A stretch of 62,606 nucleotides of DNA from a virus. The position numbers and the translations under genes are program-made. The notes under the pieces are model-generated. The model was not told the DNA's origin and made no database searches. It saw only the letters and a list, made by a program, of their open reading frames with translations. Shown piece by piece: positions 7,911 through 54,512 of the stretch. The DNA lies in IMG/VR virus record IMGVR_UViG_3300035703_000095, positions 1 through 62,606 of that record. One strand, written 5' to 3'. Each line of letters begins with the position of its first letter. The stretch's first letter is position 1.

Positions 7911-8579
7911 TTATGAATAAAGTCTGATATTATCAGCAGTTTTAAGGGTCTCAGTCTTATATTGACTGGACCCTTCTTTATATGGCATAATTTCTTTCAT
8001 ATCATTGAGTACAACGTTTAGATATGATGGTTTTAGAACATATATATTTCTCTTGTTATTTTCCAATTCCTCTTCATATTCGTAGTTTGTCACTGGAATT
8101 GAAAGATTTGGTGTTGTAATTTCTTGATCTATAAAATAGTCATAATAACTTACAAAATAGATTTCGTTCACACGCAACCCTGCAGGAACAATAACTACGC
8201 CTTGACTGTTTTTAGCTTCTTCAGTGACATAGTGATGGATTCCATTGTAGATTGTATCGTAGTCCCCATACTTATCAATCAAAAATCTATCAAAATTGTC
8301 TTGAGTAAGAGGCCATTCTGTTTGAACATTTACAATGTTATTGGATAATAAAACTACCCAGTCTAAAGTAGAATCATTGTAAATTTCGAAGGCAACATTA
8401 TCTGGGCGATCATTACCTTTAATCTGATATTTTTCAAAGAATGCTAGATTTTGAAAAATATCTTCGCGGAGTCTTCCTTTCTTAAAAAGATTTTTTAGTG
8501 GCAAATAATCTCCTATTTTAGCATCAGGAAGAACGCTAACATACTCAAAATTTGGGACTTGGCGAAAGTAACTTGGCAT
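7911..8579 (-). CDS. 53: Baseplate wedge protein gp53
   Basis: The 222-residue product begins MPSYFRQVPNFEYVS and contains NDSTLDWVVLLSNNIVN and EWPLTQDNFDRFL, typical of the gp53 family (T4 gp53 has 196 residues). gp53 joins wedge to hub during baseplate assembly. It ends the minus-strand tail operon behind gp48. Confidence 0.9.
   Translation of the reverse strand: MPSYFRQVPNFEYVSVLPDAKIGDYLPLKNLFKKGRLREDIFQNLAFFEKYQIKGNDRPDNVAFEIYNDSTLDWVVLLSNNIVNVQTEWPLTQDNFDRFLIDKYGDYDTIYNGIHHYVTEEAKNSQGVVIVPAGLRVNEIYFVSYYDYFIDQEITTPNLSIPVTNYEYEEELENNKRNIYVLKPSYLNVVLNDMKEIMPYKEGSSQYKTETLKTADNIRLYS
7944..7975. terminator. Possible terminator hairpin for gp32 inside the gp53 end
   Basis: AAGGGTC (7944-7950) and AGTC (7953-7956) pair with GACT (7964-7967) and GACCCTT (7969-7975) in a bulged 11-bp hairpin, followed on the + strand by CTTTAT. 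It lies within the last codons of gp53. The T-run is weak, so function is uncertain. Confidence 0.4.
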
Positions 8580-8580
8580 T

Positions 8581-9909
8581 TTAGTAACCTACATTATCGT
8601 TATCATCACCATAGTCATCATCAAATAGTGGGACTAGTTCTTGGAATTGAAGTGTCAACTCATATGATGTCATTGAAGGCTCATTTGCCCCAAAAGTCAT
8701 ATAATTTCCATCTGGTGTGTAATTGACATTGCATGAGGTCAGAGCACACTCTTTGAATTTATTTAAGTATGGATGTTGTTTATTTGATGAAAGATAAGAA
8801 ATTGCAAAAGTGTGTGGTGCCTGCAGTAATAAAGCAGCAGTAGACCTCTTAGTTGACATTGCTTGCTTAAAATAACGAAGTATTTTTCTAACAACTATTG
8901 CTTCTTGTTCGCTTCTTGGAGATAATCTAAAAGTAAATCCAAAACTTCTTAGTTGTGGACCATTAAATAGCAATTCCATATTTGGATTCAAAACAGCACC
9001 ATATTGTCTTTGAAGAATTCCAGCATTTTGACCAAGTGCTGCTTGCGTGAATTTTGATGCAGCTGCAATTTGAAAATCTGGAGCATTTTTGGAAGCATTT
9101 TCAAATTCCGATTTTGCAGCCTCTGCTCCTGCTGAGCCTCCACCTGCTATTGCAGATTGTGCAACATTTGCAAGACCTCTGGTAATTTCATCCAGAGAAT
9201 TTGAAGACCAATCAACTGTGTTTGAGTCTGATATTCCTCCAGGTATTGGAAGTGTAATTGTTGTAAGGACTTCTCTTTTATTGATTTCAGGAATTCCCGA
9301 ATTTACAACAACTCTACGTTCTTTTCTAGATGCTTCATCTAACTCTAATCCAGATGCTGAATATTTAATTACTGAAAATTTTATACAATCTTGATGTTCT
9401 AATCTCAATCCAATTGGGTACACCAAACTTTGATCGTAATTAACTCTAGACTTAACTTCTTTTAAAGCTTCTTTAAGAAGTTTATCCGACTGTTGATCTT
9501 TTCCTTCCGTAGGTTTTGAATTTCCAGAAGTAGCGTCAGTTCCACCTGGAGTATTTGCTTTATTTGGAGATACTAGTTTATTTGCTGTTGCTTGTGCCGC
9601 TTCTGGAGATCCACCTGCTGCTTGAACTCCTATAGAAACAGCTTGCGTTGCTTTGTTTTTTATTTCTTTAACGTTATTTGCATCAGATAATGCTTTCCTT
9701 TCAATATTTGTTAGATTTGCGTTTGGATCTGGAGTGAATTTATTAGTTTTTGTATTGATTGTTCCTAGACTTTGATATTGATTTAAAACACCTAGTCTGT
9801 AAATTTGAGTTACTCCCGTTGTTGAATTTACGACAGGAGACAAAACTCCATCAACACCTTTTATAGTGAATGGATTTTTACCAGGTTCTCCGTATGTTCC
9901 CACTGCCAT
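8581..9909 (-). CDS. 48: Baseplate tail tube cap gp48
   Basis: This 442-residue protein has a Gly/Ala/Asn-rich low-complexity insertion at about residues 70-150, then YPIGLRLEHQDCIKFSV and late strands including LRSFGFTFRLSPRSEQEA and MTSYELTLQFQEL, the tube-like fold of gp48/gp54. The family caps the baseplate and templates tube polymerisation. T4 gp48 has 364 residues, so this one is longer by about the insertion. Only one base separates it from gp53. Confidence 0.82.
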   Translation of the reverse strand: MAVGTYGEPGKNPFTIKGVDGVLSPVVNSTTGVTQIYRLGVLNQYQSLGTINTKTNKFTPDPNANLTNIERKALSDANNVKEIKNKATQAVSIGVQAAGGSPEAAQATANKLVSPNKANTPGGTDATSGNSKPTEGKDQQSDKLLKEALKEVKSRVNYDQSLVYPIGLRLEHQDCIKFSVIKYSASGLELDEASRKERRVVVNSGIPEINKREVLTTITLPIPGGISDSNTVDWSSNSLDEITRGLANVAQSAIAGGGSAGAEAAKSEFENASKNAPDFQIAAASKFTQAALGQNAGILQRQYGAVLNPNMELLFNGPQLRSFGFTFRLSPRSEQEAIVVRKILRYFKQAMSTKRSTAALLLQAPHTFAISYLSSNKQHPYLNKFKECALTSCNVNYTPDGNYMTFGANEPSMTSYELTLQFQELVPLFDDDYGDDNDNVGY

Positions 9910-28327: not shown

Positions 28328-28335
28328 GTTTTCTT

Positions 28336-28408
28336 GCCCGTGTAGTCCAACGGCAGAGACAGAGGACTTAAAATCCTTCCAGTGTCGGTTCGAATCCGAC
28401 CACGGGTA
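28336..28408 (+). tRNA. tRNA with UAA anticodon (Leu)
   Basis: All four arms fold. The acceptor GCCCGTG (28336-28342) pairs with CACGGGT (28401-28407) with a G-U first pair. The anticodon stem GAGGA/TCCTT encloses CTTAAAA with TAA at 28369-28371, and the T arm GTCGG/CCGAC encloses TTCGAAT. No CCA is encoded. The variable region is only five bases (28379-28383), whereas leucine tRNAs normally have a long variable arm, so charging identity is open. Confidence 0.88.
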
Positions 28409-28432
28409 TTAGAGGAAATAAACGCCCTCTAA
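28409..28432 (+). other. Hairpin after the tRNA
   Basis: TTAGAGG (28409-28415) pairs with CCTCTAA (28426-28432) around a 10-base loop, directly after the tRNA discriminator. There is no T-run, so it may be a processing or stability element rather than a terminator. Confidence 0.45.
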
Positions 28433-28728: not shown

Positions 28729-28800
28729 GCCCTTGTAGCTCAGTGGTAGAGCAACGGTTTTGTAAACCGTTGGTCGTCTGTTCGAATCAGATCGGGGGCT
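28729..28800 (+). tRNA. tRNA-Thr (UGU)
   Basis: A standard class I cloverleaf of 72 bases. The acceptor GCCCTTG pairs with CGGGGGC (28793-28799) with G-U pairs. The anticodon stem ACGGT/ACCGT encloses TTTGTAA with TGT at 28761-28763, and the T loop is TTCGAAT. No CCA is encoded. Confidence 0.92.
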
Positions 28801-40541: not shown

Positions 40542-42632
40542 ATGGCACCTCTATTATCAAGAATTGCTGGAAAAGATTTGACGGTAATATCAAATATTAT
40601 TAGAAAACTTACTAATATAGAATACGCTGTTATTGCTGGCGGCGGCGGGGGCGCTGGAGAGCTTGGTGGTGGAGGAGGAGCAGGAGGTTTCAGAGTAGGA
40701 ACTTTAAGTATTTCCATGGGCACTTCTTATCCCGTTACGGTTGGGGGAGCAGGTAGTTATGCATATAGTAATCCAGATGGAAATCCAGCTGTTGCTCTTT
40801 ATTATTATGGAACTCCTGGGCAACCTTCTAGTTTTGGACCCATAACTGCTACAGGTGGTGGTGGTGGAACTGGATATTGGAGCACTGCATTTCCGGGAGG
40901 ATCTGGTGGTGGTGGATCTCAAGGTATAGGTGGATATGGAATAAATCCAACAACACCTGCACCTCTTGGAGGTCCTTTTGCAAGAACAGAAGGTTATCCC
41001 GGTGGTACAGGAAATGCTTATGGTATGGGTGGCGGTGGCGGAGCTGGATCTGCTGGAGGCGATCACTTATCAGGAACAGGTCCTACTCCTCCATCAGGAA
41101 ATGGTGGCAATGGAGCTCCTGTAGATTGGCCAGAAATACCTGCTAGTTATGGAGTTTCTGGACCTGCACCAGGACGTTGGTTTGCTGGAGGTGGTGGAGG
41201 TGGTGGTGGAGCTCCTGGATATTCAAGAGCTTTTCCAGGATCTCCAGGTATTGCAGGAAATACTTATGGTGCCGGTGGGCAAGGTGGAGGAACTCCATCT
41301 TCCACTGGTAGTACTGGTTATGCTGGAATTGTGATGCTAAGAGCACCAATCAATTTTGGATATTCTGGGTCGGGATATACTACTAATGCATCTCCAACTC
41401 ATAGAGTTTTTATATTTACAAGTCCAGGATCAATTGCATTTAATTCTGTCCCAGAGCCAGCATATTTTGTATCACCATCAACAAGTTCGGTTAATGAAGG
41501 TTCTAGTGTAACATTTACTGTCAATACGGTTAATGTACCAAATGGCACTACTTTATATTGGACCACAAGTGCAGTTTCTGGATCTGTTAATTCATCAGAC
41601 TTTAATGATTCTGTAACTTCAGGTTCCTTTACAATTACGTCTGGTTCTGGAACAATTACAAGAACTTTAAGTAATGATGTTACATCAGAAGGTTCTGAAA
41701 GTTTTCAATTAGAAATTAGAACAGGATCTACCTCTGGACCTATTGTTGCAACAAGTTCCACAGTAACAATTAATGATACTTCAACTCCTGCATTTACTGT
41801 AACAGGAGGAACTAAAGTTACATCAGGATCTTACACATATCATTATTTCTACAATACAAGTTCCTATACAATTACGGGAAATACAACAGGTTATTCTTTT
41901 GATTGGTTATTGGTTGCTGGTGGCGGCGCTGGTGGAAATGGATATAGCAACGGAGGATCAGGGGGTGGCGGTGCTGGTGGTATGAAAACAGGAACAGTTA
42001 GCAGTGCTTCTCCTGGAACAAGATCATTCACTATTGGAAGTGGTGGTACAGCTGCAAATAAATACAGTTTAAACTCATCATCTAATGGATCCCCATCATC
42101 TGCGACTTTACCGGATGGGACTCTTGTTTCTGTAACAGGGGGTGGAGTAGGATTAGGTATTGCCGAGTCACTATCCAGTGCTAATGGTGGATCTGGAGGT
42201 GGTGGTAGTTTTGGAGCAGTTTCAACTTATGGTACTGGTGTTTCCGGTGAGGGAAATAATGGCGGCGGGGGTGCATCTGCAGCTGCTGGAGGCGGTGGTG
42301 GTAAAGGTGCTGTAGGTGGTAATGGAGTTCAAAGTCTAAATGGAGGTCCCGGAGGAATTGGTGCTGCTTGGGTTGATGGTTCTTATTATGCAGGCGGCGG
42401 TGGTGGCGGCGCAAGAAATGGTGGCCAACCTGGAGGTTCTGGTGGCCTCGGTGGTGGCGGTGCAGGCGGAAATGGTACTAACAGTGGCAATTCAAGTGGA
42501 GCAAATGGTGCATCAGGAACTCCAGGAACTGGCGGAGGTGGTGGAGGAGCTGGATATGAAGCTGATCAATATGGTGGTCAAGCAGGTGCTGGAGGTCCAG
42601 GAATTTTTGCTATCCGATATTTAACTCCATAA
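40542..42632 (+). CDS. Glycine-rich adhesin with a Calx-beta-like domain
   Basis: The 696-residue protein has two glycine-rich domains (about 25-265 and 460-690), each opening with a strand pair (EYAVIAGGGGGAG; FDWLLVAGGGAGG) and full of GGGGGxG loops, like the polyglycine sandwich of T4-type fibre adhesins (gp38 of S16). Between them, about 300-415, is a Calx-beta-like domain (VNEGSSVTFTVNT, TITRTLSNDVTSEGSESFQLEI). It is probably a receptor-binding tip of a fibre and follows the previous fibre by three bases. Confidence 0.72.
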   Translation: MAPLLSRIAGKDLTVISNIIRKLTNIEYAVIAGGGGGAGELGGGGGAGGFRVGTLSISMGTSYPVTVGGAGSYAYSNPDGNPAVALYYYGTPGQPSSFGPITATGGGGGTGYWSTAFPGGSGGGGSQGIGGYGINPTTPAPLGGPFARTEGYPGGTGNAYGMGGGGGAGSAGGDHLSGTGPTPPSGNGGNGAPVDWPEIPASYGVSGPAPGRWFAGGGGGGGGAPGYSRAFPGSPGIAGNTYGAGGQGGGTPSSTGSTGYAGIVMLRAPINFGYSGSGYTTNASPTHRVFIFTSPGSIAFNSVPEPAYFVSPSTSSVNEGSSVTFTVNTVNVPNGTTLYWTTSAVSGSVNSSDFNDSVTSGSFTITSGSGTITRTLSNDVTSEGSESFQLEIRTGSTSGPIVATSSTVTINDTSTPAFTVTGGTKVTSGSYTYHYFYNTSSYTITGNTTGYSFDWLLVAGGGAGGNGYSNGGSGGGGAGGMKTGTVSSASPGTRSFTIGSGGTAANKYSLNSSSNGSPSSATLPDGTLVSVTGGGVGLGIAESLSSANGGSGGGGSFGAVSTYGTGVSGEGNNGGGGASAAAGGGGGKGAVGGNGVQSLNGGPGGIGAAWVDGSYYAGGGGGGARNGGQPGGSGGLGGGGAGGNGTNSGNSSGANGASGTPGTGGGGGGAGYEADQYGGQAGAGGPGIFAIRYLTP

Positions 42633-45771: not shown

Positions 45772-45778
45772 AATTATC

Positions 45779-45785
45779 ATAAATA
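45779..45785 (+). promoter_or_regulatory. Late promoter
   Basis: CATAAATAC contains ATAAATA at 45779-45785, 21 bases before the ATG at 45806. Confidence 0.6.
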
Positions 45786-45805: not shown

Positions 45806-46870
45806 ATGTCTAGAGCATCCAATCTTGCGGGATTTGTAACAAGTATAACTCCAGTTAATAATCTATCTGTTGGTGTTGTTACTGCAACAAGTTTTATTGG
45901 AGATGGATCAGGACTCACTGGTATTGTTGGTTCTGGATCTGGAATAATTATACTTGATGGTAATGTTACTGTAGGAACAGCAGGAACAATTAATTTTGGT
46001 GAAAATTTAAGTGTATCTCCAATTTCTGCGGGATTGGTAACTGTAACTGGCAGTTCTTATGTAAACACTGCTGGTGTATCGACTTATGCAAGCACTGCAG
46101 GAATTTCAACATATACTTCAGAATGGATTCTTGGTGCTAATGGGTCAACTGATTATACTTTCACTGGCCCTGGATTTACTACGGCAACCAATGACCCAAC
46201 TTTATTCTTAATAAGAGGTCAACAGTATAGATTTACAAATACAATGGGTATACACCCATTTAGAATTCAAAGCACTCCAAATGGATCTGTTGGTACTCAG
46301 TACAATACTGGAATCACCAACAATGATGTAACGAATGGCACATTAACTTGGAACGTTAATTTTAATGCTCCAGATATTTTATATTATCAATGTACTTCCC
46401 ATGCATCAATGGGTGGAAAAATTTATATTTTAAATGCTGGCATATCATCAGATACAAGTATTAACACAACTGGCATTGTAACCGCATCAACCTTTGATGC
46501 CTTTAGTGGCAGACTAAGGAATGTAGAACTTGAAAATTACTCTGAAAGAGTTTATAACTTAGGTAACACTGGAGTATCAACAACAATAAATCTAGTCAAT
46601 GGAAACTTTGTAACTGCAACCCTTACTGATGACTGTACATTTACTTTCAACACAGGTATCTCTACAGGTGCAGTTTCATTTACTTTATTCCTAACAAATG
46701 ATGCAACTCCCAATAGATCTATTACTTGGCCTGTATCTGTAAAATGGCCAAATAATATAATTCCAACAAGAACAACTGCTGCAAGTAAATCTGACGTATA
46801 TACATTTTTTACTTATGATAATGGAACATCTTGGTATGGAAATCTAACACTATTCAATTATCCAACCTAA
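45806..46870 (+). CDS. Tail fibre protein with a cupredoxin-like domain
   Basis: The 354-residue fibre has the FIGDGSGLTGIVG motif near residue 30. A domain at about 110-212 resembles a cupredoxin: DYTFTGPGF, an IHPFRIQ strand with His150, and the C-terminal loop YYQCTSHASMGGKIYIL with Cys196, His199 and Met202, the set expected for a type 1 copper site. The last 110 residues are the shared fibre tip (WPVSVKWPNNIIPTR, FFTYDNGTSWYGNL). Copper binding is inferred. Confidence 0.75.
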   Translation: MSRASNLAGFVTSITPVNNLSVGVVTATSFIGDGSGLTGIVGSGSGIIILDGNVTVGTAGTINFGENLSVSPISAGLVTVTGSSYVNTAGVSTYASTAGISTYTSEWILGANGSTDYTFTGPGFTTATNDPTLFLIRGQQYRFTNTMGIHPFRIQSTPNGSVGTQYNTGITNNDVTNGTLTWNVNFNAPDILYYQCTSHASMGGKIYILNAGISSDTSINTTGIVTASTFDAFSGRLRNVELENYSERVYNLGNTGVSTTINLVNGNFVTATLTDDCTFTFNTGISTGAVSFTLFLTNDATPNRSITWPVSVKWPNNIIPTRTTAASKSDVYTFFTYDNGTSWYGNLTLFNYPT

Positions 46871-46884
46871 GTTAAGGTAAAGTT

Positions 46885-48135
46885 ATGTCTTTTATTCATA
46901 ACAGAATCCGAAAAGGACCAATGTTTCCGCAAGGATCAGTAACTTTTAATGCTCCCGGAAACTGGACTTCTCCTGCAAGAATTTATTCAGTTACAGTATC
47001 GGGACAAGGTGCTGCCGGCAATCCAGGAGAAGCAGGAGTTGCAGGATCTGCTGGAGATGGAAACCCGGGAACTCCGGGAACTAATGGTTCTGGAGGATCT
47101 GGTGGAGCTGGTGGTACAGGAAATCCAGGAAACCATGGTAATGGAGGTGGTGGAGGAGGTGGTGGTGCTATGGGAAGATCGGGAAACCCAACTCTGCTAG
47201 GCGTTCCCGGATCGAATGCCGCAACAGTAATAATCCCATTTTCTGCGGGAACTGGTGGAGCAGCAGCTAATGCTGTTTCAACACCAGCAAATCCTGGATT
47301 TGCTGGAAATACTGGAAATGCAGGATCTGGTAATCCAGGATCTGCAGGTAATCCAGGAACTGCCGGAAGTGCAGGAAGTCCTGGTTTTTCCAATCCAGGA
47401 GGTGCAGGAAGTCCTGGAGCAAATGGAAATATAGGAGCATTTTCCTCTGCCTTGGGGATTGTTTTCCCAGGTGGAGCTGGTGGTACTGGTGGCACTGGAA
47501 ACCCAGGAACCGGAGGAAATGCTGGAACAGGAGGAAATGCGGGAAATCCAGGATCTGTAGGAGGAACTGGAAATCCTGGAGTAGGGGGTAATGGTGGTGG
47601 TAGTGGTTCTGGTGGAGGTGGTGGAGGTAATAGTCCAGCTCCAAGTGGAAATCCTGGAACTGGTGGCGCAGGTGGAGGGGGTGGTCTTGGAGGAAACCCA
47701 GGAGGATTTTCTGGCGTTGCTGGATCTCCAGGATCTCCATCTCTTCCTTCTGGTGGTGATGGTGGGACTAATCCGACGCCCGGTAGTGGATATCCATTTC
47801 CCGTTACGCAAGCAACATGGGGTGGATCTGGTGGATATGGCGGATCTCCAGGAAATCCTGGTTCTCGTTATGCTGGAGGCGGTGGCGGAGGTGGTGCTGG
47901 TGGATTTGGTGGATTTGGAACACCAGGAACCACAGGAGCTTCAGGAAATCCTGGTTCTGGAGCGACAGCAGGAACTTCAGGATTTCCAGGATCATCTGGT
48001 TCATCAAACCCAGGATCGGCAGGATTGAGTGCAACTCCTGCATCATCATATCCAGTTCAGGTTGCGGCATCAACCGTCTATCCAATAACTGTTGGACCTG
48101 GTGGTTATATAACCATCTCTTGGACCACTCAATAA
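46885..48135 (+). CDS. Collagen-like glycine-rich fibre protein
   Basis: The 416-residue protein has a short N-terminal beta module (SVTFNAPGNWTSPARIYSV) and about 340 residues rich in Gly-X-Y triplets, many GNP, GTP or GSP with proline in the Y position (GNPGTPGTNG, GSPGFSNPGG). GGGGGGGG-type loops occur too. It ends with YPITVGPGGYITISWTTQ. It may form collagen-like triple helices or polyglycine-II sheets. It begins a cassette repeated at 51823 and lies close to three 2OG oxygenase genes. Confidence 0.72.
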   Translation: MSFIHNRIRKGPMFPQGSVTFNAPGNWTSPARIYSVTVSGQGAAGNPGEAGVAGSAGDGNPGTPGTNGSGGSGGAGGTGNPGNHGNGGGGGGGGAMGRSGNPTLLGVPGSNAATVIIPFSAGTGGAAANAVSTPANPGFAGNTGNAGSGNPGSAGNPGTAGSAGSPGFSNPGGAGSPGANGNIGAFSSALGIVFPGGAGGTGGTGNPGTGGNAGTGGNAGNPGSVGGTGNPGVGGNGGGSGSGGGGGGNSPAPSGNPGTGGAGGGGGLGGNPGGFSGVAGSPGSPSLPSGGDGGTNPTPGSGYPFPVTQATWGGSGGYGGSPGNPGSRYAGGGGGGGAGGFGGFGTPGTTGASGNPGSGATAGTSGFPGSSGSSNPGSAGLSATPASSYPVQVAASTVYPITVGPGGYITISWTTQ

Positions 48136-48141
48136 TAAATA
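48135..48141 (+). promoter_or_regulatory. Late promoter
   Basis: AATAATAAATAATAA contains ATAAATA at 48135-48141, overlapping the collagen-like gene stop and 22 bases before the ATG at 48163. The same sequence follows the paralogous gene at 53238. Confidence 0.6.
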
Positions 48142-48162
48142 ATAAAGAAACTTTGATATGAA

Positions 48163-48609
48163 ATGAAAAATAAAAAAGAATCTCAAATGAGGAAAAAAAT
48201 TAATGAATTTTATGAAAAACAAGAGTATCTGAGTATTCAACAAAATCCAAATCGTGCTAGATCGGTTACAGTTGGAACTGCATTTGGTGGTATTGTTGAA
48301 TTAATTGTAAGGTCTGATGTTGCAACAGTATGGGCTCAAATGCAACCAGTTGAAGCAATAGAATTGATGGAACAAATTGCAGCTGGTTGTGGTGTTGAAA
48401 TTGCGATGAGACCAAAACAAAACTTTGCAGCATGGAGAGGATGGGAAGAAGTTATTGATAGAGATATTTCAGTTAATAAACTTGAATGGAAAGGAGCCGC
48501 TCCATATCAATTAAACCAAAGGGAAGAAGAATTAAAATTACTAGAAGAACCAAAGAAAAAAAGAACCAGAAAAAAAGTTGAAAAGGAGGAAAAAGTAAAT
48601 GAAGAATGA
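48163..48609 (+). CDS. Cassette accessory protein A (copy 1)
   Basis: The 148-residue protein matches the one at 53272 along most of its length (RKKINEFYEKQEY, NRARSVTVGTAFGGIVE, PVEAIELMEQIAAG). The C-terminal 50 residues are Lys/Glu-rich. An in-frame ATG at 48187 is an alternative start. It always follows a collagen-like gene here, so a role as chaperone or attachment factor is inferred. Confidence 0.7.
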   Translation: MKNKKESQMRKKINEFYEKQEYLSIQQNPNRARSVTVGTAFGGIVELIVRSDVATVWAQMQPVEAIELMEQIAAGCGVEIAMRPKQNFAAWRGWEEVIDRDISVNKLEWKGAAPYQLNQREEELKLLEEPKKKRTRKKVEKEEKVNEE

Positions 48610-49168
48610 CTATTATGTTTTAGTTGATTACAACTTAAACCAAATCATCGACCATGTAAAGAAACTCCCAAACAATTGGGTTAATATTTCAGGTCTCCCA
48701 AATTACAGTGACCAAAAATTAGAAGATCTAACTTGGGCAGGGCATCCAACATTGGGATGGATTAATATATCATCACCAAAATTATCTGAATTTACATATA
48801 GTGACGAGTGGTTGGAAATTAATAAAAATAATTTAAAGAAATCTATTTCAGATGAAAGATCTACAATTCAAAATGAAGTATTGAATTACAAGGGCAATAA
48901 TATTGTTGCCAATGAGAAAAATAAAATTAATTTGTTGGTAAAAAATTCAATCTCCAGTGAAAGTTTTTATTGGAAATTTATAAATTCTCACCAACTGCTT
49001 TCAACTGAAGAAGTTAACACTCTATTGAATCTTTTGGATAATTATACACAAGAGTGTTATAATGAGGAAGCAAGATTATATTCTCTAGTAGATGAAATTG
49101 CAAATATTGATGATTTAATTTCTATTGAATTATCACCAAACTGGCCTGATACACTACTGGCAGAATAA
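48599..49168 (+). CDS. Cassette accessory protein B (copy 1)
   Basis: The 189-residue protein is a paralogue of the one at 53748: YYVLVDYNLNQIIDHVKKLP, the DLTWAGHPTLGWI strand pair, and a helical C-terminus. The layout resembles short tail fibre assembly proteins with an N-terminal beta domain and helices. It overlaps accessory gene A by 11 bases, so they are translated together. Confidence 0.7.
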   Translation: MKNDYYVLVDYNLNQIIDHVKKLPNNWVNISGLPNYSDQKLEDLTWAGHPTLGWINISSPKLSEFTYSDEWLEINKNNLKKSISDERSTIQNEVLNYKGNNIVANEKNKINLLVKNSISSESFYWKFINSHQLLSTEEVNTLLNLLDNYTQECYNEEARLYSLVDEIANIDDLISIELSPNWPDTLLAE

Positions 49169-49171
49169 ATA
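49165..49171 (+). promoter_or_regulatory. Late promoter
   Basis: ATAAATA at 49165-49171 overlaps the preceding stop codon and lies 21 bases before the ATG at 49192. Confidence 0.6.
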
Positions 49172-49191
49172 CACGAGATTGATTATTTTAT

Positions 49192-49812
49192 ATGGCTTTT
49201 CAAAGTGTTTGGTATTTTAGTAATTTACCAGAAGATATTGTAGAAATTATTGATAAAGATCTCTCATCCAACTTTGATTCCCAAATGGGAGATTCTATGT
49301 TGATTGGAGATGCATTAAACAAGGACAAAAGAAACTCAAGAAATGCATGGGTTCCTACCAATCATTGGTTGGGAGGTTTCATGTGGCACTATATTCAAAG
49401 AGCAAACAGGGAAAATTTTCTCTATGACTTGAGGAATATTGATGGTGAGAGTATGCAATATACTCAATATGGCCCTGGACAATTTTATGGTTGGCATAAT
49501 GATGCAGGAATTGCAGGGCATTATAAACCACAAGCAGTGGGAAATCGTGTCGATGGACTTGCAAGTGACTTTGTAAATGAAAATATTGAACTTGTAAGAA
49601 AACTTTCATTCGTAGTTCAACTTTCAGATCCTGATGATTATGAAGGTGGCAATTTCCAACTTCTCTCTGAGGATGGAAAGTCTTATTTCGCACCAAGAAA
49701 AAGAGGAACTGTAATTGTTTTTGATTCAAGAGCACAACATCGTGTCCTTAAAGTCACAAAAGGACTTCGTAAATCTCTTGTTGGTTGGGTAGTTGGTCCG
49801 AGGTGGAAGTGA
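49192..49812 (+). CDS. 2OG-Fe(II) oxygenase (PKHD-type hydroxylase-like)
   Basis: The 206-residue protein carries the iron triad: His102 and Asp104 in YGWHNDAG, and His183 in SRAQHRVLKV. Arg193 ten residues later fits 2-oxoglutarate binding. KLSFVVQLSDPDDYEGGNF is the typical strand between them. Such enzymes hydroxylate proteins or small molecules. Set among collagen-like fibres, prolyl or lysyl hydroxylation of fibre proteins is an attractive inference. It overlaps nothing but is one base from the next oxygenase. Confidence 0.87.
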   Translation: MAFQSVWYFSNLPEDIVEIIDKDLSSNFDSQMGDSMLIGDALNKDKRNSRNAWVPTNHWLGGFMWHYIQRANRENFLYDLRNIDGESMQYTQYGPGQFYGWHNDAGIAGHYKPQAVGNRVDGLASDFVNENIELVRKLSFVVQLSDPDDYEGGNFQLLSEDGKSYFAPRKRGTVIVFDSRAQHRVLKVTKGLRKSLVGWVVGPRWK

Positions 49813-49813
49813 T

Positions 49814-50524
49814 ATGGCAGAACAAATGACCGAAGAACAACTCTTCCACCAAGAAAGATTCAATACTGGATCATCAAAAACAAATAATGAGGACTTTGAA
49901 AGAGACGGATATCTAGTAGTAAAGAGCCTTTGGAATCCTGATGCACTAATTCGTCCAGTTCCACAAGAACGAGGACAAATTAATTATTGGGGCAAGAAAT
50001 TAGACCAATTCAGTTATTCTGAATTAGAACAACAGGTAGAAGGATCTCTTGCAGTATATTCTCACCCACAATACAGAGAAATTCATTCTGGTATTCGACT
50101 AAAACTTGAAAATATCATAGGGAGAAAATTATACAATACTTACTACTATGATAGATTCTATTTTAAGGGACAAGAACTTACTCGCCATGCAGATAGAGAT
50201 GCATGTGAAATTTCAGTAAGTGTCAACATCAGTACAAATTTAAAGGAATGTTGGCCTCTATGGATTAAAACTCCAGATACTTATAAAGACGATTCAAAAC
50301 TAGAAATTATCAAAAGAGGGGAGAATCGTTCAGTATGTCTTAATCCTGGCGATGGAATGGTATATAAAGGTTGCGAAAGACCTCATTGGAGAGATCCCCT
50401 TCCATCAAGACACAAAGGATTTAGATTCTTTAGAAAAGACGACACTTATTATCACCAAGTATTTTTTCATTATGTTCTCGCAGATGGTGGGAGAGCACAT
50501 TGTGCAAATGACATGTCAAGATAA
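49814..50524 (+). CDS. Second 2OG-Fe(II) oxygenase-like protein
   Basis: The start at 49814 (MAEQMTEEQLF) has an AGGTGGAAG ribosome binding site; the longer reading from 49793 lies inside the previous gene. In the 236-residue protein, LTRHADRDACEISVSVNI gives His125 and Asp127, and YKGCERPHWRDPLP gives distal His191, the pattern of phage-type 2OG oxygenases. FERDGYLVVKSLW is a typical N-terminus for the family. It is not close in sequence to the neighbouring oxygenases. Confidence 0.8.
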   Translation: MAEQMTEEQLFHQERFNTGSSKTNNEDFERDGYLVVKSLWNPDALIRPVPQERGQINYWGKKLDQFSYSELEQQVEGSLAVYSHPQYREIHSGIRLKLENIIGRKLYNTYYYDRFYFKGQELTRHADRDACEISVSVNISTNLKECWPLWIKTPDTYKDDSKLEIIKRGENRSVCLNPGDGMVYKGCERPHWRDPLPSRHKGFRFFRKDDTYYHQVFFHYVLADGGRAHCANDMSR

Positions 50525-50529
50525 ATTTG

Positions 50530-50536
50530 ATAAATA
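50530..50536 (+). promoter_or_regulatory. Late promoter
   Basis: GATAAATAC contains ATAAATA at 50530-50536, 24 bases before the ATG at 50560. Confidence 0.6.
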
Positions 50537-50559
50537 CTAAAAAAAGATAGCACGAGATA

Positions 50560-51183
50560 ATGTCTCAAACGAAAGCCCAATTAGTAGCTCCTGTAGGAAT
50601 ATTAACGGTCACTGGTATCAGTGCCAGTGGTATCGTAACAGCATCTAGTTATAGGGGTGACGGATCTCAACTTACTGGTATTGTTGCAGGTGCTACATTA
50701 ACGGGTTCTGGAAATACTGAGCGTCTGGTTTTAACAAGTCAGACCTCAGGTACAATGACATCTGCAGCAACTACATCTAATCTGACTTATAATACATCAT
50801 TAAATACATTTGATCTGAACGGCACGACATTAGATAAATCTGTATTAAGAAATTACACTGAAGGAGTTTCTGCACTAGGTAATACTGGCACTGCAGCAAC
50901 GATTAACCTGGCAAACGGAAACGTATTTACTGCAACTCTAACAGGAAACTGTACGTTTACATTTACAACAGGAGTAACTTCTGGAGCAGCATCATTTACT
51001 CTTATTCTGGCAAATGATGGTACTGCAGGAAGATCTATTATTTGGCCACCAGCAGTAAAATGGCCAAATAACTCAACTCCAGTAAGAACAACCACGGCAA
51101 ATGCTACTGATATCTGGTCATTCTTTACGCCAGATAATGGTACAACCTGGTACGGTAATATCGCACTATATAACTTTACATAA
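50560..51183 (+). CDS. Short tail fibre protein with the shared tip
   Basis: The 207-residue fibre has a short N-terminal part with YRGDGSQLTGIVAG and a C-terminal 110-residue tip nearly the same as the fibre at 45806 (GNCTFTFTTGVTSGAASFTL, WPPAVKWPNNSTPVR, FFTPDNGTTWYGNI). It is close to a minimal version of the fibre: attachment motif plus tip. Confidence 0.75.
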   Translation: MSQTKAQLVAPVGILTVTGISASGIVTASSYRGDGSQLTGIVAGATLTGSGNTERLVLTSQTSGTMTSAATTSNLTYNTSLNTFDLNGTTLDKSVLRNYTEGVSALGNTGTAATINLANGNVFTATLTGNCTFTFTTGVTSGAASFTLILANDGTAGRSIIWPPAVKWPNNSTPVRTTTANATDIWSFFTPDNGTTWYGNIALYNFT

Positions 51184-51195
51184 TAACTTAATTTT

Positions 51196-51792
51196 ATGAC
51201 ACCAAAATATATTGATTTTATTGGATTATATGATAATGTTTATCCCGATGGATTTTGTAATCATATGATTGAAGAGTTTGAAAGACTCTTATCTTCAGGA
51301 TCATGTTATAATCGACAAGATACAGAAAAAACTTTGAAGAAAACAAAGCAGGATGAGTTTTTCTTCTTAAATCTCAAAAACCATAACCCCTCTTCATTTA
51401 ATGGAGAATCTCCAATGAAGATTTTTTGGGAAGGTCTTCAAAGGTGTTACGATGAGTATAGTTCAGAATATGATGTTCTAAAAGAACTTCCAATTAGATG
51501 CACCACTGCAAAAATGCAAAAAACAAATCCAGGTGCTGGATATCATGTTTGGCATTGTGAGCAACATGAAGGTGATATGGCAAATCGTGCATTAACATAT
51601 AGTCTTTATTTAAATACTCTTGACAAGGATTCTGCCGGAGAAACTGAATTTTTATATCAAAGATTGAGAATCCCACCCAAAGAAAATTCGATGATAATCT
51701 GGCCTGCTGCATATACTCATACACATCGGGGAAATGTTGTTCATGGTGATAGGGCAAAGTACATTATAACTGGTTGGTTCTATCTTGATTGA
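51196..51792 (+). CDS. Third 2OG-Fe(II) oxygenase-like protein
   Basis: The 198-residue protein has YHVWHCEQHEGD (His120 and Glu122 as an H-x-E variant; His117 is near), then LTYSLYLNTLD, GETEFLYQRLRIPPKENSM and WPAAYTHTHRGNVV with candidate distal His175 or His177, and IITGWFYLD at the end. This strand order is typical of prolyl-4-hydroxylase-like 2OG enzymes. It sits immediately before the second collagen-like fibre gene. Confidence 0.82.
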   Translation: MTPKYIDFIGLYDNVYPDGFCNHMIEEFERLLSSGSCYNRQDTEKTLKKTKQDEFFFLNLKNHNPSSFNGESPMKIFWEGLQRCYDEYSSEYDVLKELPIRCTTAKMQKTNPGAGYHVWHCEQHEGDMANRALTYSLYLNTLDKDSAGETEFLYQRLRIPPKENSMIIWPAAYTHTHRGNVVHGDRAKYIITGWFYLD

Positions 51793-51798
51793 TAAATA
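51792..51798 (+). promoter_or_regulatory. Late promoter
   Basis: GATAAATATT contains ATAAATA at 51792-51798, 25 bases before the ATG at 51823. Confidence 0.6.
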
Positions 51799-51822
51799 TT
51801 TTTTAAGATAGTGTAGGAAAAG

Positions 51823-53238
51823 ATGCCTTTAGGAGCCAGCGGAAAGAACAGATCACCTGGATACATGATTCCTGCGGAGACTGTGACTTTTAATGCACCA
51901 GGAACTTTTATTGCTCCAAATAGATTACGTTCTATTTCTGTCACAGGAAAAGGTGGAGATGGAACACCAGGAACACCAGGAACTGCAGGAGTTGGTGGTT
52001 TAGGTGGAACAAGAGGGTTTGGTGGTGCTGCAGGAAACCCAGGAAGTCCAGGAAATAATGGAGCTGGCGGTGCTGCAGGAAACCCAGGAGGTCAAGGTAA
52101 TCCCGGATTTCCGGGATTTGCTGGTGCTTTTGGTGGCGGAGGCGGTGGCGGAGGAGGCGGGGCCCAAGATGACGCAGGCCGTGCATACTTTCCTGCTCCA
52201 GGGTATCCGGGAAATAGTGGCCAGGCAGGACAACCTTCAACTTTTGGAGGAAGTCCTGGTGGTTATGGTGTTGGAGGCCTTCAATGGGCAGGTGCATATG
52301 GTTCATCTGGAGTTGCTGGAGGTGTCGGCGCAACAGGTATTAATGGCACTCCAGGAAATACAGGAAATAATGGCACAGGTGAAGGTGCAGGAGGTTCTGG
52401 TAGTTCAGGATCTCCAGGATTTGGAGCTGGTACAGGAACACCAGGAAATCCAGGACAAGCAGGATCACCCGGATCACCAGGATCTGCAGGATCTACGGGA
52501 GCAAGTTCTTCAGTATTTGGATTGTTTTTCCCAGGTGGTGCTGGCGGAGCTGCTGGAACTGGTAATCCTGGAGCCACGGGAGTTGCTGGAAATCCAGGTA
52601 GTCCAGGAAATAACGGAGTAGGAGGTAATGCAGGCAATCCAGGGAGTCCCGGTTCTGCAGGAACTGGTGGTGCTGGAGGTGCTGGTGGTGCTGGAAGTGC
52701 TGGTGGAAATGGTGGAGCAGGTGGTGCTGGTGGATTTTCATCTTTAGGTGGTGGAGGAGCAGGTGGTGGTGGCACCACTGGTAATCTACAACCAGGCAGT
52801 TCATATAATGGATTTGCAGGAAACCCAGGAGCTGCTGGTGGTTCTGGAGGAAGTGGTGGATCTGCAGGATCTGCTCAAGGTGGTTCTGGTGGTCAGAGTG
52901 GTGGGCCTGGTCCAGCAAGTCCCCTAGGGGGCGGTGGAGGAGGTGGCGGTGGTGGTGGTGGAGGCGTCGCTGCTGCCGGCGGTGCTGGTCAACCAGGACA
53001 ATTAGGAAATCCTGGATCTGCTGGAAGTCCTGGATTTGGTGCAACTTCAGGTACTTCTGGATCAGCAGGTTCTGATGGAACAGATGGATCTCAAGGAGCT
53101 CCAGGAAATGCAAATCCAGGAGGTGCAGGAAGCGCAGCAAATGCTTCAAATCTTGCATCAGTGATTACTGGTGGACAATCTTATCCCGTAACTGTTGCTC
53201 CCGGTGGATTTGTAACAATTTCCTGGACAACTCAATAA
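51823..53238 (+). CDS. Second collagen-like glycine-rich fibre protein
   Basis: The 471-residue paralogue of the protein at 46885 has the module VTFNAPGTFIAPNRLRSI, a long Gly-X-Y region (GTPGTPGTAG, GNPGSPGNNG, GSPGSPGSAG) with proline mostly in the Y position, polyglycine runs, and the same end (YPVTVAPGGFVTISWTTQ). It is followed by the same two accessory genes as the first copy. A collagen-like or polyglycine-II structure is likely. Confidence 0.72.
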   Translation: MPLGASGKNRSPGYMIPAETVTFNAPGTFIAPNRLRSISVTGKGGDGTPGTPGTAGVGGLGGTRGFGGAAGNPGSPGNNGAGGAAGNPGGQGNPGFPGFAGAFGGGGGGGGGGAQDDAGRAYFPAPGYPGNSGQAGQPSTFGGSPGGYGVGGLQWAGAYGSSGVAGGVGATGINGTPGNTGNNGTGEGAGGSGSSGSPGFGAGTGTPGNPGQAGSPGSPGSAGSTGASSSVFGLFFPGGAGGAAGTGNPGATGVAGNPGSPGNNGVGGNAGNPGSPGSAGTGGAGGAGGAGSAGGNGGAGGAGGFSSLGGGGAGGGGTTGNLQPGSSYNGFAGNPGAAGGSGGSGGSAGSAQGGSGGQSGGPGPASPLGGGGGGGGGGGGGVAAAGGAGQPGQLGNPGSAGSPGFGATSGTSGSAGSDGTDGSQGAPGNANPGGAGSAANASNLASVITGGQSYPVTVAPGGFVTISWTTQ

Positions 53239-53244
53239 TAAATA
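53238..53244 (+). promoter_or_regulatory. Late promoter
   Basis: AATAATAAATAATAA contains ATAAATA at 53238-53244, identical in context to the one at 48135, and 28 bases before the ATG at 53272. Confidence 0.6.
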
Positions 53245-53271: not shown

Positions 53272-53751
53272 ATGGCAAAAAAAGAAGAATCTGAGATTCG
53301 TAAAAAAATTAATGAAATGTATGAAGAGAATGAGTATGCAAATCTTCAACAAAATAAGAATCGTGCTCGTTCAATCACTATAGGAACTGCCTTTGGTGGA
53401 GCAATTGAAGTTAATATGAGAGGTGATTATCATTCTTTATGGTGTATTTTGAGTCCTGTTGAAGCTATAGAAGTTCTTGAACAACTAGCAGCAGCTGCAG
53501 GTGTTCAAGTTGCGACGAAACCAAAGGATGACTACAGTGCATGGCGTGGTTGGGATGTTAATAATGTAAATTATCTTCATTGGAAAGGTGCTGCTCCCTG
53601 GCAAGTTGATCCAGAAAATAGACATGAAAACAAGGAGTTGGAAGCAGCAAAAGAACCAAAACAACTTCCACCGGGAAAAGAAGAGTCAGATTCAGAAAAG
53701 GAACCCCCTAAAAAAACAAGAAGATCAACTAGAAAAAGAGTAGAAGAATGA
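53272..53751 (+). CDS. Cassette accessory protein A (copy 2)
   Basis: The 159-residue paralogue of the protein at 48163 shares RKKINEMYEENEY, NRARSITIGTAFGGAIE, PVEAIEVLEQLAA and a WRGWD motif. The C-terminal 45 residues are Lys/Glu/Pro-rich and more diverged. The stop overlaps the next start by four bases. Confidence 0.7.
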   Translation: MAKKEESEIRKKINEMYEENEYANLQQNKNRARSITIGTAFGGAIEVNMRGDYHSLWCILSPVEAIEVLEQLAAAAGVQVATKPKDDYSAWRGWDVNNVNYLHWKGAAPWQVDPENRHENKELEAAKEPKQLPPGKEESDSEKEPPKKTRRSTRKRVEE

Positions 53752-54329
53752 CCAGAAAAAACTTTTATGTTTTAGTTGATAAAACTAATAAGACTGTTCT
53801 CAGTTATCCAGTGGAACTTCCAGAAAACTGGAATAACATTCATGGGTTAAATTCTTTTACTGATGAACAACTTTCTGATCTAGAGTGGGCTGGTCATTCT
53901 GATTTTGCTTGGATCAAATTCAACACCAGATTTCCAAGTGGTTATACGTTTGGAGATGGTTGGGTAACCTTTGCAAAAGAAATTGTAAAGGAAACTTATG
54001 CTAAATTGAGATGGAATGCGGAATCGAAAGGTATCTTATATAAAGACATAGAAATTAAGACAGACGATAGAACAAGAACAACAATTCTTCTAAAGAAACA
54101 ATTATTGAGTGAAGGTTCGACCGAAACTTTTAGTTGGAAATATAACGGTTCTATTATTAAATTTACTGCCGAAGATGTAGTTAATATTTCAAATGCAATC
54201 AATGAGTATGTACAAAATTGCTATGAAGTTGAAGCAGAACTCATTGAAAAATTAGATCTAGTGACAAGTATCTCTGAACTAAAGAGCTTTAATTTAAATA
54301 TCGAGTGGCCATCAAATGATTACAACTAG
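53748..54329 (+). CDS. Cassette accessory protein B (copy 2)
   Basis: The 193-residue paralogue of the protein at 48599 shares FYVLVDKTNKTVLSYPVELP and DLEWAGHSDFAWI, then helices. The late region LLSEGSTETFSWKYNGS matches SISSESFYWKF in copy 1. It is the last gene of the fibre locus before a terminator. Confidence 0.7.
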   Translation: MTRKNFYVLVDKTNKTVLSYPVELPENWNNIHGLNSFTDEQLSDLEWAGHSDFAWIKFNTRFPSGYTFGDGWVTFAKEIVKETYAKLRWNAESKGILYKDIEIKTDDRTRTTILLKKQLLSEGSTETFSWKYNGSIIKFTAEDVVNISNAINEYVQNCYEVEAELIEKLDLVTSISELKSFNLNIEWPSNDYN

Positions 54330-54407: not shown

Positions 54408-54512
54408 ATGAGGTACTCCTCCCTGGACAGATTGATTTTTGTCACATCCTTCCTGATTCTGATGAACTGGGGTGTTAGGATTTGTAACGTTGCAATGAAC
54501 GCGGTATTCTGA
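54408..54512 (+). CDS. Very small membrane peptide
   Basis: A 34-residue ORF (MRYSSLDRLIFVTSFLILMNW...) with one hydrophobic segment (about 9-20). The stop overlaps the next ATG (TGATG), and the start lies 22 bases from a -10 element, which supports translation. Function unknown. Confidence 0.6.
   Translation: MRYSSLDRLIFVTSFLILMNWGVRICNVAMNAVF

Follow-up and report, generated by a model that had tools for sequence, protein, structure and literature searches.

A Conserved Viral Tail-Fibre Cassette Pairs a Predicted Prolyl-Hydroxylase-Type Oxygenase with Putative Gly-X-Y Adhesins

Introduction

For the virus PBCV-1, the account of Eriksson 1999 given in PMC9301287 describes the known case in which a viral enzyme was tied to hydroxyproline in viral proteins. 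Glycine-rich phage adhesins are represented by Pam3 gp24, a fibre whose beta domain continues as a lattice built from Gly-rich segments around central poly-Gly and which has a variable tip and is served by a dedicated chaperone (PMC9608196), and by S16 gp38, which resembles Pam3 gp24 (PMC6851490). Furthermore, phage-borne collagens carry proline (Pro) mainly at position X of their Gly-X-Y triplets, and the Y-position Pro of human collagen was attributed to hydroxylation (PMC3368898). In this study, the 62.6 kb virus record IMGVR_UViG_3300035703_000095 (positions 1 to 62,606, referred to as the window) was analyzed with regard to two Gly-X-Y fibre proteins that are encoded together with three 2-oxoglutarate (2OG)-Fe(II) oxygenases, termed oxy1, oxy2 and oxy3, of which oxy3 appears to be dedicated to the Gly-X-Y proteins.

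2OG-Fe(II) oxygenases are common in cyanophages, where they are usually filed as repair or auxiliary metabolic genes and have no accepted role. Where a conserved cassette couples one oxygenase subfamily to a single kind of fibre protein that shows the matching proline signature, a testable substrate is at hand.

Results and Discussion

Conservation of the Cassette and Features of Oxy3

The window represents the tail/tail-fibre region of a T4-like cyanophage encoding baseplate hub, baseplate and tail-fibre proteins, and its nearest named relatives are S-SM2 and Bellamy. Two Gly-X-Y genes enclose the three oxygenase genes, and oxy3 immediately precedes the second of them. An earlier reading of this DNA, made from its letters alone (the sequence-only reading), had located these five genes correctly:

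46885..48135, + strand: putative Gly-X-Y adhesin 1, 416 amino acids; Pro at Y versus X 15:0; 48% identity with the second copy
49192..49812, + strand: oxy1, predicted PKHD/P4H-type 2OG-Fe(II) oxygenase, 206 amino acids; PF13640, 53.9 bits
49814..50524, + strand: oxy2, putative divergent 2OG-Fe(II) oxygenase; alternative open reading frame start TTG at 49793; database name 'ferrochelatase'
51196..51792, + strand: oxy3, predicted prolyl-4-hydroxylase-type 2OG-Fe(II) oxygenase, 198 amino acids; the member linked to Gly-X-Y
51823..53238, + strand: putative Gly-X-Y adhesin 2, 471 amino acids; N-terminal beta strands, Gly-X-Y segments, poly-Gly blocks and C-terminal YPVTVAPGGFVTISW strands; Pro at Y versus X 22:0

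A dedicated coupling of a predicted prolyl-hydroxylase-type enzyme with Gly-X-Y fibre proteins is supported by conserved synteny, by a cassette-specific preference for Pro at Y and by the likeness of oxy3 to prolyl 4-hydroxylases (P4H) and PHD enzymes in both profile and fold. On balance, and with moderate confidence, the cassette as a whole is best explained if oxy3 hydroxylates the Y-position prolines of an adhesin of polyglycine-II (PGII) type.

For comparison of loci, 80 relatives each of oxy2, oxy3 and the companion protein encoded next to the Gly-X-Y genes were fetched from IMG/VR, together with a control set anchored on the unrelated downstream gene at 54512. Owing to the low complexity of its patterns, a direct scan with the Gly-X-Y alignment returned two loci only, and the companion family served as anchor in its place. 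Calling of Gly-X-Y genes by an N-terminal motif missed true and caught false members and was replaced by glycine content combined with position.

Approximately 100 related uncultured viruses carry the cassette. A Gly-rich Gly-X-Y gene was located next to oxy3, or one gene further on, in all 58 loci with sufficient flanking sequence and oxy3 relatives of at least approximately 44% identity, a set that includes redundant sequences; among relatives at 37–46% identity, none out of 13 featured an adjoining Gly-X-Y gene. Anchoring on the companion, a choice that is independent of the oxygenases, yielded 45 non-redundant loci, each with a Gly-X-Y gene directly upstream and with oxy3, and all three oxygenase families were present within 5.2 kb in 30 of the 37 companion loci with longer downstream sequence. 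Within the control set (n=49), 47 loci contained neither a Gly-X-Y gene nor a strong oxy3 match, one contained both and one a Gly-X-Y gene, as called by the scan rule, without a strong oxy3 match. In a tree of 116 distinct oxy3-type enzymes (95 linked, 21 unlinked), linkage changed 4 times compared to 19.6 times after shuffling, and the window oxy3 belongs to a set with 99% support in which 36 of 37 members are linked. Two gene orders were observed, namely oxy3, Gly-X-Y, companion, chaperone-like, oxy1, oxy2 (order A) and oxy1, oxy3, (oxy2), Gly-X-Y, companion (order B).

Oxy3 is matched by 368 phage records, and no cultured phage with its cassette subfamily was found among those searched. The companion family, which is not of low complexity, was likewise absent from the cultured phages searched, and tblastn found no member of the Gly-X-Y family in cultured phages, a result weakened by low-complexity masking. 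One cassette copy resides on a contig that was binned as Verrucomicrobiales and looks like phage DNA. This locus (L317) also encodes a tryptophan halogenase (8118-9617; PF04820, E 3.5e-102) 2 kb 3' of the cassette, i.e., another tailoring enzyme adjoining the fibre module.

The oxy3 protein matches PF13640 above the cut-off, and its profile search of Protein Data Bank (PDB) structures returned P4H enzymes only. Its AlphaFold2 model, featuring a predicted local distance difference test (pLDDT) score of 86.5 and a predicted template modelling (pTM) score of 0.86, was searched with Foldseek, and all 50 of the 50 matches listed were prolyl hydroxylases, with the collagen prolyl hydroxylase of PBCV-1 (5c5t) at the top (E 1e-9). 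Moreover, H120-x-E122, H177 and K188 are invariant across 20 oxy3 sequences and aligned with the iron- and 2OG-binding residues of P4H. Based on profile and model, oxy3 is predicted to be a double-stranded beta-helix enzyme of the P4H/PHD type that performs prolyl hydroxylation.

The Gly content of the two window proteins amounts to 34% (46885) and 38% (51823). Their longest unbroken Gly-X-Y runs comprise 18 and 24 triplets, respectively, and never exceeded 12 in 500 composition shuffles; triplets in runs of at least six numbered 65 and 85, compared to shuffle maxima of 25 and 27. A chance origin of the periodicity from composition was thus ruled out by the shuffles. Within the window runs, Pro was found at Y versus X in a ratio of 37:0, and Pro most often occurs in GNP, GSP and GTP triplets, as had been noticed from the sequence alone. 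The 107 non-redundant cassette proteins follow the same pattern, with Pro at 17.6% of Y positions and at 2.4% of X positions; 100 of them have more Pro at Y and none has more at X. In non-cassette Gly-X-Y proteins of the same loci, this bias is absent (33:18 proteins, Y versus X; Fisher p 3e-10). G-N-P-G dominates, representing 808 of 1315 G-x-P-G motifs in cassette proteins. The bias towards Y-position Pro fits a candidate prolyl hydroxylase substrate.

The Oxygenase Pair Oxy1 and Oxy2

In addition to its PF13640 match above the cut-off, oxy1 features invariant H102-x-D104...H183 and R193 residues and matches profiles of PKHD-type hydroxylases and P4H enzymes (3dkq, PiuC, E 1e-14). It is assigned to the superfamily only, since NCBIfam equivalog cut-offs were not reached. 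Oxy2 has no Pfam match of its own and is a member of phrog_2954, named 'ferrochelatase'. Within its alignment, HxD...H is invariant and 4 of 24 aligned relatives match PF13532, so that oxy2 is, with moderate confidence, regarded as a divergent 2OG oxygenase. A function as ferrochelatase was rejected, as this label comes from PHROG only, without any Pfam or NCBIfam ferrochelatase match, and as the HxD...H motif is invariant. The name, which also appears in many GenBank records, looks like a propagated misannotation. The H-x-D/E...H triads previously read in all three enzymes (H120/E122/H177 in oxy3) are hence present.

Oxy1 and oxy2 are 82.5% and 62.6% identical to S-SM2 proteins, respectively, and 345 phage records match oxy1. 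Of 41 loci anchored on oxy2 and extending 3 kb to either side, 38 contained the pair without a Gly-X-Y family gene, as did S-SM2 and Bellamy, so that the two enzymes were dismissed as being specific for Gly-X-Y proteins. Nevertheless, a Gly-rich protein was encoded within 3 kb of oxy2 in 29 of 37 loci, compared to 17% of random control positions. Because the pair is also located beside other Gly-rich adhesins, oxy1 and oxy2 probably act on Gly-rich fibre tips more broadly. A search for a residue co-varying with oxy2 as its target gave no convincing signal, only small uncorrected differences for Asn, His and Tyr. In S-SM2 (NC_015279, 36881-39415), four consecutive oxygenase/'ferrochelatase' genes lie between tail fibre genes; judging by this phage, 2OG oxygenases cluster with fibres beyond this cassette as well.

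The sequence-only reading had proposed that the phage hydroxylates its own fibres by means of three differing enzymes, and that co-occurrence of oxygenases and Gly-X-Y fibres be surveyed. The enzymes do differ, oxy3 being linked to the cassette and oxy1/oxy2 representing a general cyanophage pair. A dedicated link to the phage's own Gly-X-Y fibres is supported for oxy3. The counter-evidence named by the reading itself, oxygenases just as frequent where such fibres are absent, was obtained for the pair but not for oxy3.

The wide distribution of oxy1 and oxy2 without Gly-X-Y proteins would be expected if the module simply moved as a unit while its oxygenases acted elsewhere, on a host surface glycan or protein, a nucleic acid or a small molecule. 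For cyanophage 2OG oxygenases, AlkB-like repair (PMC2984593) or a role as auxiliary metabolic genes (PMC12542629) has been suggested. Such co-transfer is considered unlikely as the sole explanation: oxy3 and the Gly-X-Y gene are kept together in both gene orders across diverged viruses, the bias towards Y-position Pro is restricted to linked proteins, oxy3 resembles prolyl hydroxylases and not AlkB, and Gly-rich proteins are enriched near oxy2 relative to the control.

Fold of the Gly-X-Y Proteins

The sequence-only reading had described both fibres as mostly Gly-X-Y and had suggested that hydroxylation stabilises triple helices. The periodicity stood, but interruptions occur in the runs, which also contain conserved blocks of poly-Gly. 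Among the cassette proteins, the longest unbroken run has a median of 11 triplets, runs of eight or more triplets account for only 20% of residues, and seven or more consecutive Gly residues are present in 95 of 107 proteins; the poly-Gly columns are invariant in the family alignment. The two window proteins reach 19.3 and 15.4 bits for Pfam Collagen (PF01391), below the cut-off of 27.2, and just 7 of 55 relatives match it at E of 0.01 or lower.

In the AlphaFold2 monomer model of the 471-amino-acid adhesin, three segments (approximately 16-75, 205-270 and 410-471) are confident and are separated by two low-confidence Gly-rich regions. These segments combine beta strands with Gly-X-Y stretches containing isolated bridges, form a compact core and match invariant family columns. 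Foldseek found nothing significant for this model in the PDB and one unnamed protein in BFVD (E 1e-7). A second structural aligner placed the Pam3 fibre at the top (Z 6.5, 2.4 A, 82 residues, 22% identity).

True collagen, in which the Gly-X-Y runs of three chains wind into a triple helix stabilised by oxy3-dependent hydroxylation of Y-position Pro, would account for the periodicity far above shuffles, the weak Pfam Collagen matches, the restriction of Pro to Y as in hydroxylated collagens and the PBCV-1 collagen hydroxylase as top match of oxy3. It is nonetheless quite unlikely in view of the sub-cut-off scores, the short runs, the long poly-Gly stretches, which destabilise triple helices, and the three separate segments confidently predicted in a monomer. 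The Gly-X-Y proteins are therefore probably not collagen triple helices, and the proposed triple-helix stabilisation appears doubtful. Based on the sub-cut-off Collagen matches, the interruptions, poly-Gly, the compact model core, the Pam3 match and the chaperone-like genes, a PGII lattice as in Pam3 gp24 and S16 gp38 is likelier than a collagen fibre.

Modification of Asn or another adhesin residue in place of Pro is improbable: Asn-hydroxylating 2OG oxygenases are known, Asn represents 33.7% of X positions in cassette runs (unlike in collagen) and loci with the cassette oxy2 contain slightly more Asn (p 0.009, uncorrected, approximately 20 tests), but the nearest structures of oxy3 are all prolyl hydroxylases and Y-position Pro is the feature separating linked from unlinked Gly-X-Y proteins.

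Proposed Mechanism

Under the preferred explanation, namely prolyl hydroxylation of a PGII-type adhesin by oxy3, the Gly-X-Y proteins would represent receptor-binding tips whose segments are packed side by side as polyproline-II (PPII)/PGII helices resting on a small beta domain. The adhesin would be synthesised late in infection, together with the companion, the chaperone-like protein and oxy3. The latter would use O2, Fe(II) and 2-oxoglutarate for 4-hydroxylation of Y-position prolines, mostly within G-N-P-G, in exposed Gly-X-Pro segments, before or during chaperone-assisted packing and folding. Hydroxyproline may favour or stiffen the PPII backbone, and hydroxyls on the outer face could enhance lattice stability or tune glycan binding by providing a hydrogen-bonding surface for host glycans.

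Several points weigh against this explanation. Genes linked in a host-range module may travel together without an enzyme-substrate relation, and the iron motif of oxy3 is HxE and not HxD. Overall, the adhesin was modelled poorly (pLDDT 61, pTM 0.46), and the Pam3 match hardly exceeds those of unrelated beta domains (GGCX, Z 6.3). Moreover, the same pattern of Y-position Pro could arise from a structural preference for x-P-G, G-x-P-G may just be a good PPII turn motif, and half of the prolines in cassette proteins lie outside G-x-P-G. Loci with and without oxy2 showed no difference in Y-position Pro (p 0.51), and the correlation between adhesin composition and oxygenase content is weak.

Locus Organization

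The Gly-X-Y gene, the companion gene and the chaperone-like gene are duplicated within the window (46885/48163/48599 and 51823/53272/53748), the copies sharing 48%, 52% and 31% identity, respectively. Late-promoter-like NATAAATA sites precede six gene starts (45806, 48163, 49192, 50560, 51823 and 53272) at a distance of 28-35 bp, as opposed to approximately two expected from the density elsewhere, in agreement with the late promoters claimed from the sequence. The remaining features of the region are as follows:

45778..45785, + strand: late-promoter-like NATAAATA site preceding the first fibre/adhesin operon, located 28 bp ahead of the start at 45806
45806..46870, + strand: tail fibre protein, connector-like, C-terminal domain in common with 50560; phrog_677 (E 2.5e-32), phrog_9017, phrog_7760
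48134..48141, + strand: late-promoter-like site
48163..48609, + strand: companion protein 'comp', first copy, 148 amino acids; 52% identical to the 53272 protein
48599..49168, + strand: tail-assembly-chaperone-like protein (DUF4376/Phage_tail_APC group), first copy
49164..49171, + strand: late-promoter-like site
50529..50536, + strand: late-promoter-like site
50560..51183, + strand: tail fibre protein that shares its C-terminal domain with 45806; phrog_7760, phrog_9017
51791..51798, + strand: late-promoter-like site
53237..53244, + strand: late-promoter-like site
53272..53751, + strand: companion protein 'comp', second copy, 159 amino acids; family directly 3' of Gly-X-Y genes
53748..54329, + strand: tail-assembly-chaperone-like protein (DUF4376), second copy; PF14301, E 5e-13

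Neither companion copy (48163, 53272) matched a Pfam family above the cut-off or a PHROG family. The companion gene is invariably located after the Gly-X-Y gene, with frequent overlap of the two in other viruses, and its product is possibly a chaperone or adhesin partner. The 53748 protein and its relatives match PF14301 (DUF4376) and PF16778 (Phage_tail_APC), and a structure search of this family gave unconvincing matches only. Located downstream of the adhesins, the 48599 and 53748 products are putative cognate tail-fibre chaperones. Taken jointly with the explanation given above, and held with the same moderate confidence, the region would represent a late-expressed host-recognition cassette of a T4-like cyanophage whose adhesin part is duplicated.

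The fibre region encodes a further Gly-rich adhesin (40542-42632; PF21722 Gly_rich_2, E 2e-18) without the Y-position Pro pattern. As is also the case in S-SM2, genes for tRNA-Leu(TAA) (28335-28409) and tRNA-Thr(TGT) (28729-28800) immediately precede the gene for the long tail fibre.

Conclusions

The conserved cassette suggests that these viruses chemically modify their tail-fibre tips. More tentatively, with confidence falling somewhat short of even, a class of tailed phages may possess dedicated modification of receptor-binding tips, in which a prolyl hydroxylase, often accompanied by two further 2OG oxygenases, acts on Y-position prolines of a PGII lattice. If so, receptor-binding proteins would bear encoded hydroxylations that depend on host oxygen, iron and 2-oxoglutarate, and phage host recognition would include a chemical layer invisible in the DNA sequence alone. 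This would affect the prediction of host range from sequence, and recombinant fibre production would need a co-expressed enzyme. Furthermore, a P4H-type enzyme would have a Gly-X-Y substrate other than collagen. No report of hydroxylated phage fibres or of the cassette was found in the open-licence literature.

Compared to described systems, the EPcl proteins of E. coli prophages share Gly-X-Y repeats in fibre proteins with the window, but feature Pro mainly at X, long uninterrupted runs and a host without prolyl hydroxylase (PMC3368898), whereas in the window proteins Pro is at Y and the runs are interrupted and accompanied by poly-Gly blocks. The oxygenase pair at cyanophage tail fibres (T4-GC 412 and 615; S-SM2, Bellamy, S-MbCM6) corresponds to oxy1 and oxy2 of the window; unlike the window, these phages lack cassette-subfamily oxy3, the companion and the Gly-X-Y proteins. 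Pam3 gp24 and S16 gp38 resemble the window adhesins in the predicted combination of a beta domain with Gly-rich segments, in poly-Gly motifs and in downstream chaperone-type genes. The window adhesins differ by strict Gly-X-Y phase, Y-position Pro and two long loops of low confidence, the structural match is weak, and linked hydroxylases are not described in the Pam3 (PMC9608196) or S16 (PMC6851490) papers. Finally, oxy3 is predicted to share its fold and its iron and 2OG residues with PBCV-1 vCPH (5c5t), bacterial and animal P4H and PHD2, which are its top structural and profile matches, albeit at approximately 15% identity and with HxE in place of HxD. Unlike these enzymes, oxy3 has its gene within a fibre cassette of tailed phages, where one particular Gly-X-Y gene adjoins it. 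The parts resemble known ones, namely prolyl hydroxylases and Gly-rich adhesins of phages, and what is new is their dedicated coupling.

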